From: Colwellia psychrerythraea 34H
GTDB lineage: Bacteria > Pseudomonadota > Gammaproteobacteria > Enterobacterales > Alteromonadaceae
Assembly (NCBI RefSeq): GCF_000012325.1
Contig: NC_003910.7
Span: forward strand, 3,658,001 to 3,722,000
DNA length: 64,000 nt
Direction of reading: 5' to 3'
Below, piece by piece: positions 5,413-42,540 of this stretch. Each line of letters opens with the position of its first letter. Position 1 is the first letter of the stretch. Both the position numbers and the translations under genes were made by a program. Under the pieces are notes generated by a model. It worked only from the letters and a program-made list of their open reading frames with translations, was not told where the DNA came from and did no database searches.

Positions 5413-6558
5413 ATGACGAATCCACTAAATACTGACTCCAATAGTATAGGTTCCAAAGAGATGGCTTCAACCAGTGCTGCCTCAAATGAGTTAGTTTCAT
5501 CAACTATCAACACTATTTTACCTACCTTAGTTGATGGCCTTGATTTGAATCAAAGACAAAGCCATGACTTTTTTCAGCAAGTACTCCAAGGCAACATCGA
5601 CCCAGCTTTAATGGCGAGTGTATTAACAGCACTAAAAATTAAAGGTGAAACACCAGAAGAAATCGCTGGTGCGGCAATTGCTATTCGCGCAGCTGCGACT
5701 CCTTTTCCTGAACGTAATAAAGAAGATATTGTCGCCGATTGTGTTGGTACTGGTGGTGATGGTGCTAATACCATTAATATTTCAACTACTGCTGCGGTTC
5801 TAGCAGCAGCTTGTGGCTTAAAAATGGCGAAACATGGCAATAGAAGTGTTTCAAGTATGTCTGGCTCGGCTGATTTACTCGAAGCATTTGGCGTCAATTT
5901 ATCCATGTCACCTGAAACAGCCAATCACTGTCTAGCACAAACAAATTTATGTTTCTTATATGCCCCTGCTTACCACTCTGGTTTTAAATATGCCGGACCA
6001 GTGAGAAAAGCTATGGGCATTCGTACCTTATTCAATATCTTAGGGCCGCTAGTTAATCCTGCTAAGCCAAATATAATGTTACTCGGCGTATATACGCCTG
6101 AATTATTAATGCCGATGGCTCAAGCACTCCAGCTGACCGGTGTTAAACGCGCTTTTGTTGTTCATGGTAGTGGCTTAGATGAAATTGCGTTACACGGCAA
6201 TACGCAAGCCATTGAAATTAACAATGGTGAACTAATTGAACGTACGATTTCACCACAAGACTTTGGCTTAAAAAATTACACTCTTGAAGAGATTAAGGGT
6301 GGCACGCCTGCAGAAAATGCCGATATTATTAGAGATATTTTATCTGGTCAAGGAAAGGATGCACACAATGCAGCAGTAATAGTTAACTGTGCTGCATTAC
6401 TGTATTTACACGATAAAGCTGAGTCACTTACTCAAGCTGCACAACTTGCAACAGAGGTGCTTGCTTCAGGTAAAGGCTTAAGCACTTTATTAACCTTGGT
6501 TAAACTTTCAAACCAAGATGTTTCATCGACTCAAACTGAATTAAAGGCTGATAAATAA
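5413..6558 (+). CDS. trpD: Anthranilate phosphoribosyltransferase
   Basis: A 381-residue TrpD that joins anthranilate to PRPP. It carries a Ser/Thr-rich N-terminal extension of about 30 residues before the helical domain (LDLNQRQSHDFFQQVLQGNID). The PRPP-binding loop GTGGDGANTINIST and KHGNRSVSSMSGSADLLEAFG are intact, as is GVKRAFVVHGSGLDEI. The ATG at 5413 follows the trpG stop by one base, with a GGAG ribosome site overlapping the trpG end. The N-terminal extension is slightly longer than usual, so translation could begin at Met17, but the upstream RBS favours the longer form. Confidence 0.95.
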   Translation: MTNPLNTDSNSIGSKEMASTSAASNELVSSTINTILPTLVDGLDLNQRQSHDFFQQVLQGNIDPALMASVLTALKIKGETPEEIAGAAIAIRAAATPFPERNKEDIVADCVGTGGDGANTINISTTAAVLAAACGLKMAKHGNRSVSSMSGSADLLEAFGVNLSMSPETANHCLAQTNLCFLYAPAYHSGFKYAGPVRKAMGIRTLFNILGPLVNPAKPNIMLLGVYTPELLMPMAQALQLTGVKRAFVVHGSGLDEIALHGNTQAIEINNGELIERTISPQDFGLKNYTLEEIKGGTPAENADIIRDILSGQGKDAHNAAVIVNCAALLYLHDKAESLTQAAQLATEVLASGKGLSTLLTLVKLSNQDVSSTQTELKADK

Positions 6559-10162: not shown

Positions 10163-10200
10163 AATAAAAAAAGGAGCAATTATATTGCTCCTTTTTTATT
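10163..10200 (+). terminator. trp operon terminator (bidirectional)
   Basis: AAAAAAAGGAGCAAT and ATTGCTCCTTTTTTT form a long stem around a TAT loop, followed by a T-run. The A-run on the other side allows it to stop the convergent minus-strand gene as well. Confidence 0.85.
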
Positions 10201-10208
10201 ATGTTTAT

Positions 10209-10565
10209 TTAAATTCTCAACATGCGGACTGATAAAAAAACTATCACTAACGTTAAACCGATAAAGAGCAATGCTAAAAGATGATACAAACTTCGTTGCA
10301 ATTTAATTTTAGCCCGTGTAAACACGCCTTGTGAGACTTCATCGTTCTTTGGGAGATTATGGAAAAGAGAAAGTAATATATTAAATAGTAATAACCATAT
10401 CAAGCCAACAAAACTTAACATAGCTGTAGGATCGGTTGATTGCGTTGGCAAAGATGTTTGCAGCACCTGAGCAACAATAACTGCAATGAGCAGTACTGCC
10501 ACTATATAAGTCAATTTACGAAATGGTTGTAGCTTTGAAGACAGTTTTTCTAATATTTCCAACAT
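10209..10565 (-). CDS. Small predicted membrane protein, unknown function
   Basis: A 118-residue protein if started at the ATG at 10563-10565 (MLEILEKLSSK). A TTG start nine codons further upstream is possible. Three hydrophobic segments are visible: residues about 20-38 (YIVAVLLIAVIVAQVL), 53-73 (MLSFVGLIWLLLFNILLSLF) and 96-114 (LLALLFIGLTLVIVFLSV). Basic residues lie between the second and third. I do not recognise a family. It converges with the trp operon at the shared terminator and lies downstream of the two CsrB-like RNA genes on the same strand. Confidence 0.6.
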   Translation of the reverse strand: MLEILEKLSSKLQPFRKLTYIVAVLLIAVIVAQVLQTSLPTQSTDPTAMLSFVGLIWLLLFNILLSLFHNLPKNDEVSQGVFTRAKIKLQRSLYHLLALLFIGLTLVIVFLSVRMLRI

Positions 10566-10693
10566 GAACAGCCCAACTCTCAAATGACTCAATGATTTTC
10601 GAATAAATGACGTTCAAAGCATACGGTACTGGTTGATAATGATTTTCCCTAGTAAATCATATCGATAAACGAACATAGATTATAATCTAAACA

Positions 10694-10726
10694 TAAAAAA
10701 ATGCGACTCAATGAGTCGCATTTTTG
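10694..10726 (-). terminator. Terminator of CsrB-type RNA copy A
   Basis: ATGCGACTCA (10701-10710) and TGAGTCGCAT (10712-10721) pair perfectly. The A-run at 10695-10701 gives a U-tail on the minus strand. The identical stem recurs at the end of copy B. Confidence 0.85.
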
Positions 10727-11341
10727 TAACTAGCTTATACGGTGCGTCCTGCACACATATTAATGATCTCATTTCTTCCTTGAACAACTATCCTTAGTAT
10801 ATCCTTTATGAATCCATTCATGTCCATGTTGGGTAACGGTTACGTTTCCTATTCAATCATCCATAATTAGTGTCTTCCTGACCCTATTTCCTTTAAAGTA
10901 TACAATTCAACAATTCCGTGTTTTATCCTTTAGTTAACCTTCCTTAGCTAACATTCCTTGGTAATAGTCTTCCGTAACTATTGTCTTCCTGACCTTGGTT
11001 ATCCTCACCAAGCCACATCCTTGTTTATATCATCCATAGCGGCATCCTACCACTAGACTTCATCCTTAAAGCCTCCTTGTTAAACCCTATTATTAATAGC
11101 ACTAACGTGTTATTAATAATTAAAGCATCCTGCTTTAGGTTTTCCTTCTCTCTTATACAAGCATCCTTACTCATATATTCCTTGAAATGCATCCATTGCA
11201 TTATTCCTGCTCAACTCAATCCCTGAGTCATGTTACCGTCCTCGGTAAGTCCTTAAGTTACTATATCCATCTTAGTAACCGCATCTTCCTTAATCACGTT
11301 ACAAGTAACGCCGAAGCCCCCTGCTCCTTGTCTCCCTGACA
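10694..11341 (-). ncRNA. csrB: CsrB-type sRNA, copy A (about 650 nt)
   Basis: No protein-coding gene fits this stretch. Read on the minus strand it contains about 35 GGA trinucleotides, many in CAGGA, AAGGA or GGAAG contexts. These are the CsrA-binding signature of CsrB/CsrC/RsmZ sponge RNAs. It ends in a perfect hairpin (ATGCGACTCA / TGAGTCGCAT) with a U-tract. A -10-like TAATAT lies at 11348-11353, and an 18-bp UvrY/GacA-type palindrome at 11508-11525. A related copy lies directly upstream. CsrB RNAs titrate CsrA and so relieve its translational repression. Ends are estimated from the promoter and terminator. Assignment is by motif and context, not by alignment to known CsrB. Confidence 0.8.
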
Positions 11342-11347
11342 TGATTG

Positions 11348-11353
11348 ATATTA
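11348..11353 (-). promoter_or_regulatory. -10 element of CsrB-type RNA copy A
   Basis: TAATAT on the minus strand, in the block GGTGTAATAT that is conserved as GGTGTATTAT in copy B. No good -35 box is visible, which suits an activator-dependent promoter. The predicted RNA start is near 11341. Confidence 0.5.
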
Positions 11354-11507
11354 CACCTAAATATCGTTTATCGAAGCGAGTAATAACAAAGTTCAAAATG
11401 TAAAAATAATGTAACAAAAACTTTTTTTATTTTACTCTTATTAATCAGTACGATAGGATTTATTGGTCTTATGTTCTAGCTGAAATTGCCAACATATCTC
11501 ACACTGA

Positions 11508-11525
11508 TGTAGGACATGTCTTACA
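11508..11525 (-). promoter_or_regulatory. UvrY/GacA/VarA-type upstream activating site, copy A
   Basis: TGTAGGACATGTCTTACA is one base from a perfect palindrome and matches the TGTAAG-N6-CTTACA site bound by GacA-family response regulators at csrB/rsmZ genes. It lies 172 bases upstream of the -10 element, exactly the spacing of the copy B site. The surrounding ~45 bases are also conserved between copies. Confidence 0.75.
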
Positions 11526-11639
11526 AAGAATACAGAGGTTTGGCGGTGTTATTATTTATCCAGAGATGAACTAGAGTAAATACGGTTTGAAGCGGGGTTG
11601 TCGAGTAATTTTTATAACTGGGTGATTTATTAGGATCTA

Positions 11640-11672
11640 TAAAAAATGCGACTCATTGAGTCGCATCTTTAT
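11640..11672 (-). terminator. Terminator of CsrB-type RNA copy B
   Basis: The same 10-bp stem as copy A, ATGCGACTCA (11646-11655) with TGAGTCGCAT (11657-11666). The A-run at 11641-11646 gives the U-tail on the minus strand. Confidence 0.85.
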
Positions 11673-12175
11673 AACTAGCTTATATGGTGCGTCCTGCACA
11701 CATATTTAATGATCTCATTTCTTCCTTGAACAACTATCCTTAGCACATCCCTTATGAGTCCACTCATATCCATTTAGAAAAACGATTAGTCTCTCATTTA
11801 ATCATCCATAATTCATGTCTTCCTGACATTGGCTATCATCACTAAGCCATATCCTTTCATTTCTTCCTTTGTGGTATCCTACCACTCGACTCTATCCTTA
11901 AAGTCTCCTTATCAAACCCTATCCTGAATAACACAAAAATATTATTTAGAATTAAAGCATCCTGCTTTAGGTTTTCCTTTTATCTGACACAAGCATCCTT
12001 ACTTATATCTTCCTTGAATAGCATCCGTTGCATCCAACTTTCTCAACTCAATCCTTAAGTAATAATTACCGTCCCGGTAAGTCCTTAAGCCACTAGATTC
12101 CATCTCAGTAACTTGCATCTTCCTTAATAGCATTACAAGTAATGCTGAAGCCCCCTGCTTCTTGTCTTCCTGACA
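11640..12175 (-). ncRNA. csrB: CsrB-type sRNA, copy B (about 535 nt)
   Basis: A second GGA-rich RNA on the minus strand (about 26 GGA in ~510 bases), clearly homologous to copy A. Both start with a GTCAGG-AGACAAG block and a GCAGGGGGCTTC hairpin. They share a TTACCG..GGTAA region, GCATCCTGCTTTAGGTTTTCC read on the plus strand, and identical terminator stems. Copy B is about 110 bases shorter, lacking part of the middle repeats. A 63-codon ORF that can be read inside it is a by-product of the low stop density. Its own palindromic activator site lies at 12342-12359 and its -10 at 12182-12187. Confidence 0.8.
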
Positions 12176-12181
12176 GGAATA

Positions 12182-12187
12182 ATAATA
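12182..12187 (-). promoter_or_regulatory. -10 element of CsrB-type RNA copy B
   Basis: TATTAT on the minus strand, in the conserved block TTTAGGTGTATTAT. Predicted RNA start near 12175. Confidence 0.5.
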
Positions 12188-12277
12188 CACCTAAACATCA
12201 TTGGTCGAAGCAGGTTAACAATTAAGATCCAAATACAGAAACAACATCACAATTAATGACAAAAAATAACCGATTAC

Positions 12278-12290
12278 AATCAATAACTTA
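12278..12290 (+). promoter_or_regulatory. Candidate IHF site upstream of CsrB copy B
   Basis: AATCAATAACTTA fits the IHF consensus WATCAANNNNTTR at every position. It lies between the activator palindrome and the promoter, where DNA bending would bring them together. IHF involvement at csrB is known in E. coli. Copy A has a weaker match at nearly the same offset (near 11443). Confidence 0.45.
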
Positions 12291-12341
12291 AGGTTGTGAT
12301 TTAAATAAAGCAGCAGAAATTGCCAATATATCTCACAGTGA

Positions 12342-12359
12342 TGTAAGACATGTCTTACA
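12342..12359 (-). promoter_or_regulatory. UvrY/GacA/VarA-type upstream activating site, copy B
   Basis: TGTAAGACATGTCTTACA is a perfect 18-bp palindrome with the GacA-family half-sites TGTAAG and CTTACA six bases apart. It sits 172 bases upstream of the copy B -10 element. Confidence 0.8.
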
Positions 12360-12361
12360 AA

Positions 12362-12398
12362 AAAAATAGCACTTTGTCAGTGCTATTTTTTTTAGGGA
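12362..12398 (-). terminator. Terminator of the GNAT gene (bidirectional)
   Basis: AAAAAAAATAGCACT and AGTGCTATTTTTTTT form a long stem around TTGTC. It isolates the GNAT gene from the CsrB-type RNA locus downstream. Confidence 0.8.
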
Positions 12399-12455: not shown

Positions 12456-13127
12456 TTATTCTTCTTTATCTCGATAGTGAACCATCACAGAACCACAGAC
12501 ATTGCCTACTGTCACCTCTTTAACCGTGTGATAATCAACCTGTTTGAAGAATTCTTTAAATTTTCCTGAGGTTGCATACACCGCAACACCCTCACTATCG
12601 GGATGTTCATCAAGAACTGTATTTACAGCGGCCATTAAGTAGTGACCAAAACCATGCTGTTGATGCAGTGGATGAACTGCGATAAAGGATAAAAAGTGAA
12701 ATATTTTTAACGGCACAGCAGCCAATACAGTGTGCTCTTTTTGCATCATTTGTTTGGTACTAAAGTAACCTGCATTCAACAGCATCTTTAAACGCCAATG
12801 CCAAAAACGATCACTCGCCAATGTTTCATCAGGGCTATTAATACAAGCAACACCAACCATAGCCTCACCTAGATACAGTCCAATCATAGGCTGTTTAGCT
12901 TGCCAGAAAGCATTAAGTTCTTCCCTGATAGCACCACGAAGACGTTGCTCATAATCTTCTTTATCGCTTTTAAAAATATCCAAAAAAACGGGGTCATCAT
13001 GATAGGCCTGATATAAAAGGGACGCGGCTAATTTCAATTCATGAGCACCCAAATATGTCGCTCGAATATTAACGTCTTGATTTATATTGCTATCAACACT
13101 ACTTTCTACCGATACTGTCTCACTCAT
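12456..13127 (-). CDS. GNAT-family N-acetyltransferase
   Basis: A 223-residue protein. The acetyl-CoA binding motif A of the GNAT fold is visible near residues 145-170: FLSFIAVHPLHQQHGFGHYLM, a Q-x-x-G-x-G-type pyrophosphate loop, followed by a helix and GVAVYATSGKFKEFFKQVDYH. About 20 residues of Ser/Asn-rich sequence precede the domain. The substrate cannot be told from sequence. It is a single gene with its own terminator. Confidence 0.75.
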   Translation of the reverse strand: MSETVSVESSVDSNINQDVNIRATYLGAHELKLAASLLYQAYHDDPVFLDIFKSDKEDYEQRLRGAIREELNAFWQAKQPMIGLYLGEAMVGVACINSPDETLASDRFWHWRLKMLLNAGYFSTKQMMQKEHTVLAAVPLKIFHFLSFIAVHPLHQQHGFGHYLMAAVNTVLDEHPDSEGVAVYATSGKFKEFFKQVDYHTVKEVTVGNVCGSVMVHYRDKEE

Positions 13128-41649: not shown

Positions 41650-41726
41650 GGCTACATAGCTCAGTTGGTTAGAGCACATCACTCATAATGATGGGGTCCC
41701 AGGTTCGAGTCCCGGTGTAGCCACCA
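41650..41726 (+). tRNA. tRNA-Met (CAT), elongator, copy 1
   Basis: A 77-base gene with CCA encoded. Acceptor GGCTACA pairs with TGTAGCC, anticodon loop CTCATAA reads CAT, and T-arm CCAGG-TTCGAGT-CCCGG is intact. The body matches the elongator tRNA-Met of E. coli (metT), not the initiator. An identical second copy is at 42464. Confidence 0.95.
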
Positions 41727-41790
41727 TTTTACTTCAGTATTTATACTTAAGTAAAAAGAGTTCAAGTCTCTTTAAAAACTTGAATGTAAT

Positions 41791-41895
41791 GCGGGTTTGG
41801 CGGAATTGGTAAAACGATACACGCGCTACTTTTTTTTATAGAGAGTAGGTTCCAGTATTACAAGATGTGAGAGTTCAAGTCTCTTTAAAAATTGA
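41791..41895 (+). pseudogene. Broken tRNA-Leu gene
   Basis: It begins like the intact neighbours (GCGGGTTTGGCGGAATTGGTA) and later matches TAGGTTCCAGTAT..CAAGATGTGAGAGTTCAAGTCTCT. About ten extra bases interrupt the D-arm and about fifteen, including a T-run, replace the 5' side of the anticodon stem. The 3' acceptor strand and CCA are missing and replaced by TTTAAAAATTG. It cannot fold as a tRNA. The intact copy follows six bases later, so this looks like a failed duplication. Confidence 0.8.
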
Positions 41896-41901
41896 ATGTA
41901 T

Positions 41902-41986
<85 letters not shown>

Positions 41987-42028
41987 TTTCAAAGCAACGT
42001 TGTTGCACGTAAAAAGTAAGTACATTGC

Positions 42029-42103
42029 AGGGATATAGCCAAGCGGTAAGGCAGCGGGTTTTGATCCCGTCATTCAGAGGTTCAAATCCTCTTATCCCTG
42101 CCA
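42029..42103 (+). tRNA. tRNA-Gln (TTG), copy 1
   Basis: A 75-base gene: acceptor AGGGATA with TATCCCT, discriminator G and CCA. Anticodon loop TTTTGAT reads TTG, and the body resembles E. coli glnU/glnW. Identical to the copy at 42167. Confidence 0.93.
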
Positions 42104-42166
42104 CTTTTTATCATCATTGTTAATTCAATTTTAATAAAAAGTATGCAATGTAACTTATTATCCTGG

Positions 42167-42241
42167 AGGGATATAGCCAAGCGGTAAGGCAGCGGGTTTT
42201 GATCCCGTCATTCAGAGGTTCAAATCCTCTTATCCCTGCCA
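42167..42241 (+). tRNA. tRNA-Gln (TTG), copy 2
   Basis: Identical in sequence to the copy at 42029, 63 bases downstream of it. Acceptor, anticodon TTG and encoded CCA are intact. Confidence 0.93.
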
Positions 42242-42293
42242 TTTTTTTAAAAATGGTACACAGAGCCAAGTCTCTTTAAACCTTGAATGTAAT

Positions 42294-42378
<85 letters not shown>

Positions 42379-42463
42379 TTTCAAATATCTAGAAAACAAA
42401 ACACTCCCCTTATTATCTAAAACTTAAGCACTGCTTATATTAGATAATTATTTGTGTTTCAAA

Positions 42464-42540
42464 GGCTACATAGCTCAGTTGGTTAGAGCACATCACTCAT
42501 AATGATGGGGTCCCAGGTTCGAGTCCCGGTGTAGCCACCA
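42464..42540 (+). tRNA. tRNA-Met (CAT), elongator, copy 2
   Basis: Identical in sequence to the copy at 41650. It ends the intact tRNA array. The 365 bases downstream contain no gene but hold tRNA-like scraps, such as a T-arm-like GGGGTTCAACTCCCCC near 42853. Confidence 0.95.

Follow-up and report, generated by a model that had tools for sequence, protein, structure and literature searches.

Two neighbouring genes of Colwellia psychrerythraea 34H that probably encode CsrB-type RNAs and differ by an internal hairpin block

We analyzed 64,000 nucleotides (nt) of Colwellia psychrerythraea 34H (contig NC_003910.7, positions 3,658,001 to 3,722,000 of the forward strand), hereafter called the window and numbered from its first base. 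Two neighbouring small RNA genes in it, A and B, are with little doubt paralogous genes for CsrB-type RNAs, which by their predicted architecture would sequester the protein CsrA. In the Csr system, such sponges determine the threshold of a switch that acts globally on motility, carbon storage and biofilm formation. Gene A (10694–11342, minus strand) is the long form, recognized by its excess of GGA motifs, by the RNA cut out from it, and by its folding and the placement of GGA in loops; it measures 649 nt from the inferred 5′ end and carries 35 GGA. Gene B (11639–12176, minus strand) is the short form, lacking a block of A; its 5′ end was placed from the -10 box and the conserved start TGTCAGGAAGACA, giving 538 nt and 26 GGA. 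An earlier note on this DNA had proposed two tandem CsrB-type genes between 10694 and 12359, and its reading was supported by the GGA excess, the loop placement, the activator sites, the terminators, the presence of CsrA, UvrY/GacA and BarA in the genome and the genus-wide layout. Its limits were accurate: A has its 3′ end at 10694, and the GacA-type site upstream of B begins with base 12359; its GGA counts (about 35 and 26) were exact, and its lengths (about 650 and 535 nt) agreed with those computed here. From the end of B to the point where A is inferred to start there are 296 bp, and the two genes share their strand and have similar ends. Together, they offer 61 GGA per genome at a median spacing of 15 nt.

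The GGA content was compared with that of shuffled sequences. In 1000 base shuffles, a 652-nt segment holding A gave a mean of 16.2 GGA (maximum 30) and a 560-nt segment holding B gave 12.9 (maximum 22); in 500 dinucleotide-preserving shuffles of the same segments, the means were 19.7 (maximum 28) and 15.6 (maximum 23), respectively. The observed counts exceeded every shuffle, indicating that the packing is real. The chance expectation of about ten and eight copies given previously was too low, being valid only at equal base frequencies. When both strands were scanned, every one of the 28 densest 500-nt segments (at least 12 GGA) came from the A/B locus. The locus had also been described as free of genes. 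The list of open reading frames (ORFs) for the window contained none of at least 64 amino acids (aa) within it, and the only ORF of at least 60 aa, a 63-aa frame at 11999–12190, begins with a GTG that precedes the inferred 5′ end of B. GGA is present far above chance in a noncoding stretch, as in a CsrB-type gene.

For comparison, we collected 47 GGA-dense genes from genomes of the genus, which are denoted here by our own handles (G000 and so on). The fetched regions represented 36 of the 37 genus genomes that had been searched with the DNA of A. Two genes cut by contig ends (G001, G032a) were set aside, leaving 45; G005b, without a canonical terminator, and G027, with a variant 5′ end, were also left out, leaving 43 RNAs, i.e., A, B and 41 RNAs of relatives. 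The G022 sequence contains N, so that its RNA length is unsure, and G035 was seen only as a match at a contig edge. The dense segments L053 389–1010 and L069 2692–3070 were not taken as genes, as neither has an upstream site. In G005b (L050), the GGA region and the conserved 3′ block are kept, and the canonical terminator stem was not found.

Predicted folding placed GGA motifs in hairpin loops more often than expected by chance. The GG of GGA lay in a hairpin loop for 17 of 35 motifs in A (100 dinucleotide shuffles: mean 13%, maximum 33%) and for 13 of 26 in B (mean 11%, maximum 40%), and the folding energies of both RNAs were about 4.4 standard deviations below the shuffle means. A predicted structure with GGA outside loops had been named as a finding that would speak against CsrB-type RNAs; in the structures obtained, half of the GGA were in loops. 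Across the 43 RNAs, the GG of 508 among 1226 GGA lay in hairpin loops, where 146 would be expected from position alone, and E. coli csrB treated in the same way had 9 of 22 in loops, against 2.5 expected. By prediction, many of the motifs sit in loops of short hairpins.

The two genes are also preceded by the same layout, namely a -10 box and a GacA/UvrY-type site that starts 183 nt before the inferred 5′ end; the earlier note had described a shared block after a -10 box and GacA-type activator sites. The site of B (12342–12359, minus strand; TGTAAGACATGTCTTACA) is a perfect palindrome, and nowhere else in the genome is TGTAAGN6CTTACA matched without a mismatch; that of A (11508–11525, minus strand; TGTAAGACATGTCCTACA) is one of 16 one-mismatch matches genome-wide. 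The -10 boxes, identified from the sequence and the promoter consensus, are TATTAT for B (12182–12187) and TAATAT for A (11348–11353), both on the minus strand. We compiled 49 promoters, 43 from the genus and six from other genera. They have in common a -10 region, GtGTA.TATTA, and a second conserved element, TGTgAGATATaTTGgcaa, located 22 bp past the GacA-type site. In B, this element is TGTGAGATATATTGGCAA (12320–12337, minus strand; 22 bp after the first), and in A it is TGTGAGATATGTTGGCAA (11486–11503, minus strand). The second element, TGTGAGATATaTTGGCAA, is in phase with the GacA-type site, and our guess is that it might be another such site in degenerate form.

Both genes end in an intrinsic terminator, as CsrB-type genes do. 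That of A (10697–10725, minus strand) was listed by a simple terminator scan, and three of its ten pairs show two-sided changes in relatives; that of B (11643–11669, minus strand) was absent from the same scan and was recognized from its sequence, folds and alignment. Each has the form TGCGACTC-loop-GAGTCGCA. The terminators had been called identical; their stems are indeed closely similar, but they differ by one base at the foot of the stem and by one in the loop.

The genome encodes the protein partners of such RNAs. It has one CsrA gene, and over 58 residues the encoded protein is near-identical to that of E. coli (1y00); it also has UvrY/GacA (387 bits; cut-off 280) and BarA (1233 bits; cut-off 890). 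The upstream sites are accompanied in the genome by their presumed activator and by BarA. We propose that UvrY/GacA, phosphorylated from BarA, would bind the TGTAAG-N6-CTTACA-type site approximately 183 bp upstream and activate transcription, which would start from a -10 box with a poor -35. The resulting noncoding RNAs of 538 and 649 nt would fold as a row of short hairpins, often with GGA in their loops, the GGA motifs lying approximately 15 nt apart, and RNA polymerase would stop at the intrinsic terminator. CsrA dimers would then load onto the GGA sites and be withdrawn from their mRNA targets. Over evolution, the genus would adjust this capacity through copy number and through gain and loss of internal hairpin blocks, probably by recombination between short repeats. 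In this scheme, the sequence features, the predicted folds, the conservation and the presence of the partner proteins were observed; transcription, activation by UvrY, binding and titration of CsrA, and the recombination mechanism are what we infer.

Several points weigh against this identity. The transcription of A and B and their binding of CsrA are predictions from sequence. At the gathering cut-offs, Rfam reported nothing in the 64-kb window except tRNAs; that is, the search with the Rfam CsrB and CsrC models suggested in the earlier note did not reach the curated cut-offs. With a relaxed threshold, the CsrC model (RF00084) scored 25.5 bits in A (E = 3.3e-05; cut-off 61) and the CsrB model (RF00018) 20.6 bits in B (E = 0.004; cut-off 71); over the whole genome, the CsrB model reached at most 20.1 bits. 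These scores are far under the cut-offs, and A and B are not members of RF00018 or RF00084 as modelled. Because the models fall short in this way, the case rests on architecture and on relatives. Places with at most two mismatches to the GacA-type site numbered 204 in the genome against 207 for the reversed control; therefore, the site alone proves little, and its constant placement is the evidence that counts. We also checked covariation in the 3′ block of the 43 RNAs, using three GGA hairpins that we named and the terminator, with slid and letter-shuffled controls. Of the cells in these helices, 92.3% were paired (22–47% when slid), with 53 two-sided changes (7–14 when slid). The covariation was concentrated in the terminator, with 34 of the two-sided changes, and in hairpin 1, with 17; hairpins 2 and 3 contributed one each, and 26% of the cells of hairpin 1 were unpaired (74% pair). 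Two of five measures were unremarkable, namely pairs with a two-sided change and pair types, which 61 and 139 of 500 letter shuffles reached, respectively, and RNAalifold by itself called just part of hairpin 3 and the terminator. Covariation supports the terminator well and the single hairpins weakly.

The placement of the site was constant across the genus. Searching the stretch of approximately 190 nt upstream of each gene for its best site, we found one with at most two mismatches before all 45 genus genes whose upstream sequence was available (perfect in 25, with one mismatch in 14 and two in six), and in the 43 cut-out RNAs it started 175–186 nt before the inferred 5′ end. The genes themselves were similarly widespread. 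DNA of A matched all 37 genus genomes searched (36 relatives and its own), in many cases over part of its length, and a covariance model of the 3′ block matched all 39 of 39; 34 of these had supplied rows to the model, and G001, G027, G035, G330 and G331 matched without having done so, G330 and G331 with two matches each, less than 1 kb apart. Outside the genus, six of seven genomes examined, from five other genera of the family, carried such a gene (G307 did not). These six genes are GGA-dense, extend over 245–466 nt from first to last GGA and have the site 190–193 nt before the first GGA; two of them adjoin the same GNAT-like gene that flanks the pair in the window. Judging from the genus-wide matches and the genes in other genera of the family, the locus is old.

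Across the order, the 3′-block model matched 51 of 295 genomes at E ≤ 0.01, i.e., two of the genus, eight of other genera of the family and 41 of other families. We examined seven of the eight (all but G208) and nine of the 41; none of the nine had a GGA-dense gene with an upstream site, and the remaining matches in other families were taken as probable terminator-like chance. Fourteen family genomes without a 3′-block match may hold diverged genes, as RF00018 matched four of them (G088, G126, G157 and G219). In these four and in G208 and G170, also of other genera of the family, its E-values ranged from 4.8e-6 to 3.5e-16, all below the cut-off as judged by E-value. Of 197 genomes of the order, 67 contained a match above the cut-off of the CsrB model, as did E. 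coli alone among 14 control genomes; a strict-filter search found no match at E ≤ 0.001 in the genus genomes G000 and G014. The result is a genus-wide, largely syntenic set of sponge genes, which in the tested genomes of the genus escaped Rfam at its cut-off. Other Rfam names below threshold (OrzO-P, STnc250 and others) were rejected as chance, lying mostly on terminators or A/T-rich hairpins. Within the Colwellia genome, RF00018 matched the A/B locus and two weak pieces elsewhere, and the 3′-block model found only A and B convincing on their strand, with the next best match away from them at E = 0.27; a diverged third copy with a different 3′ end could have escaped both models. In G183 (L124, minus strand, 5619–5921), a segment with 17 GGA that begins TGTCAGGATGACA lies 1.5 kb from the orthologous gene, with no upstream site within two mismatches.

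The genes tend to keep their surroundings and vary in number. In the window, the pair is flanked by a 127-aa ORF (10209–10592), beyond which lies a gene that we take to be trpA, and by an ORF at 12456–13127, which we take to encode a GNAT-like protein. Where flanks were recognized in the genus, the RNA gene lay on the side of trpA and the 127-aa ORF, on the GNAT side or between both; in many of the genomes with small RNAs, neither neighbour was found within the fetched stretch. Two copies lie on one contig between these flanks in G000, G007, G014, G016, G026, G030 and G034; in G005, G010, G021 and G032, the two are more widely spaced or on different contigs; most other genomes have one copy (G004 was counted as single despite a second match on another contig). 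We built a tree from the bodies of 25 RNAs out of the 43. In it, the B copies of G000, G032, G007 and G026 grouped together (Shimodaira–Hasegawa-like approximate likelihood ratio test, SH-aLRT, 95), as did the A copies of G000, G007, G026 and G016 (83). As A-type and B-type bodies group across species, the pair seems to be older than the split of those species, with modest support from the tree. In G030, G010 and G005, copies from the two positions grouped with each other (93), as gene conversion or separate duplication would give.

The copies also differ in length. Among the 43 RNAs, length varied between 315 and 1187 nt and the number of GGA between 15 and 68, at a density of 5.17 ± 0.45 GGA per 100 nt (r = 0.967). 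The main difference between A and B is a block of 112 nt with seven GGA (10883–10994, minus strand), which lies beside direct repeats (GTCAGGAAGACA) in A and is replaced by a single base in B, for a net difference of 111 nt. The GNAT-side copy lacks the block in the aligned G000, G007, G030 and G026, and RNAs of 527–540 nt are found on the GNAT side in G000, G007, G026, G030 and G032 and at the other position in G016; the block seems to have undergone more than one loss or gain. The earlier note had suggested that the divergence in length serves dosage or differential control. The length difference is real, but we rejected a tie between length and position: the copy on the side of the 127-aa ORF is the longer one in the window and the shorter one in G016 and G010.

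Relatives showed growth by whole units. G020 has four tandem units of 147–148 nt, 94–99% alike, and a degenerate one, in an RNA of 1187 nt with 68 GGA; its close relative G002 has three, 96–97% alike, and a degenerate one, in an RNA of 1030 nt with 53 GGA. Unit lengths overall were 146–148 nt, most commonly 147. G020 and G002 are draft assemblies (approximately 560 and 220 contigs, respectively); as the units have diverged and occur in two genomes, they are unlikely to be purely an artefact of assembly, although their number may be miscounted. In A, the block lies within a 173-nt stretch (10863–11035, minus strand) that is related to the 147-nt unit of G020, with 111 of 147 aligned bases identical and the best agreement over the first 86 (87%), whereas B agreed best over the first 67 only (79%). 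G034_2 (759 nt) has shorter internal repeats. From these comparisons, sponge capacity seems to evolve by block gain and loss. We are evenly divided on the further proposal that the sponge is a variable-number tandem repeat, in which a hairpin block with 7–10 GGA would be gained or lost between short direct repeats and would tune the threshold of CsrA titration within one gene, besides tandem copies of the whole gene. The total GGA per genome correlated with genome size (Spearman 0.54, n = 33 genomes, with kinship uncorrected, rounded sizes, and totals of 28 for G005b and 32 for the cut-off G032a entered by hand), and we did not rely on this value. Block-wise growth of the sponge in relatives is the part most worth specialist attention, and a natural series of 15–68 GGA at constant density is suited to asking how the number of sites, rather than the amount of RNA, determines CsrA titration.

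Other explanations of the locus must be weighed against these data. One of the two copies might be a decaying remnant, with only the other at work. The site of A carries one mismatch, and G005b, without its canonical terminator, suggests that decay of a single copy does happen. However, both A and B keep dense GGA in loops, the site, the -10 box and the terminator, and the A-type (83) and B-type (SH-aLRT 95) groups suggest that both have been kept since before the species split; we regard decay as distinctly unlikely. It is harder still to believe that polymerase reads through the terminator of B to give one long B–A RNA, a bipartite sponge. The common strand, the 296-bp gap and the similar ends would permit this, but a site, a -10 box and a terminator are present separately in each gene and are conserved among relatives, and in G010 and G026, where the two genes are 33 and 10 kb apart, respectively, both still keep all three.

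The chance that the RNAs act mainly in another way, by pairing with mRNAs or by presenting Shine–Dalgarno-like AGGA to ribosomes, appears slighter yet. AGGA is established as the core of the Shine–Dalgarno sequence, and dual roles are conceivable; nevertheless, GGA in loops of short hairpins, a GacA-type site and the set of CsrA, UvrY and BarA form the signature of CsrA sequestration, and GGA density stays constant while length varies almost fourfold. To a coding gene or an mRNA leader with an accidental excess of GGA we give practically no credence. A 63-aa ORF does overlap B, and the net 111-nt difference between A and B and the commonest unit of 147 nt are both multiples of three. Yet that ORF starts outside the inferred RNA, the sense frames of the 43 RNAs stay open for just 26–73 codons at their longest, and unit lengths vary by single bases. 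Sequestration of CsrA by two paralogous CsrB-type RNAs thus remains the reading that we prefer.

Other features of the window were recorded in passing. A hairpin between runs of A and T at 12361–12393, probably the terminator of the GNAT-like gene, directly adjoins the upstream site of B. The trpA-like gene and the 127-aa ORF converge, and between them, at 10167–10197, the terminator scan gave a symmetric terminator-like hairpin on both strands. Six tRNA genes at 41650–42540 (plus strand) are arranged in mirror order: Met(cat), Leu(tag), Gln(ttg), Gln(ttg), Leu(tag), Met(cat).

Finally, we compared A and B with known systems. In the open-licence literature, we found no report of a Csr RNA for Colwellia and none of repeat-unit growth in a Csr RNA; PMC5471319 names both Colwellia and CsrB, and in the parts consulted Colwellia appears only as a comparison genome. 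The tandem arrangement is not itself a novelty. According to the sections consulted, csrB1 and csrB2 of Shewanella oneidensis are neighbours at one locus, with the same TGTAAGN6CTTACA box upstream as A and B and with dependence on BarA/UvrY; unlike A and B, at 649 and 538 nt, they measure 420 and 421 bp and have a transposase gene between them (PMC3171408). Neighbouring csrB matches also occur in G044, G045, G174, G112, G191, G055 and G047. G044, of another family of the order, has five tandem Rfam csrB matches approximately 700 bp apart (L144, C1:4532000-4539000), and G045, also of another family, has two dense segments with 33 GGA each. The number of CsrA sites in A had been called unusual; 35 is high, but modestly so beside the two segments of G045, and the extreme is the 68 of G020.

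By biology, the closest counterparts of A and B appear to be Pf1–Pf3 of Pseudoalteromonas fuliginea, a marine polar relative. As far as the consulted parts of the two papers tell, these RNAs are reported to bind CsrA despite their dissimilarity to E. coli CsrB, are GGA-rich and, in the case of Pf1, have a GacA-like site, all of which resembles A and B (PMC11882849, PMC9927453). They differ in having 25, 21 and 9 GGA (as counted in the 2025 paper) and in lying in separate intergenic places; for Pf1 and Pf2, the authors found no matches outside their genus (PMC11882849, PMC9927453). The four Vibrio genes csrB1–4 likewise show several copies and a recent duplication (csrB4 from csrB3), but they are described as mostly out-paralogues after duplication and relocation, and the main text does not contain the words GGA or tandem (PMC6262261). 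E. coli CsrB shares with A and B the string of GGA hairpins, the intrinsic terminator and similar loop statistics. It has 22 GGA in 369 nt, and A and B are the longer RNAs, as the earlier note had stated. A and B are very probably RNAs of this known kind, here unusually long.

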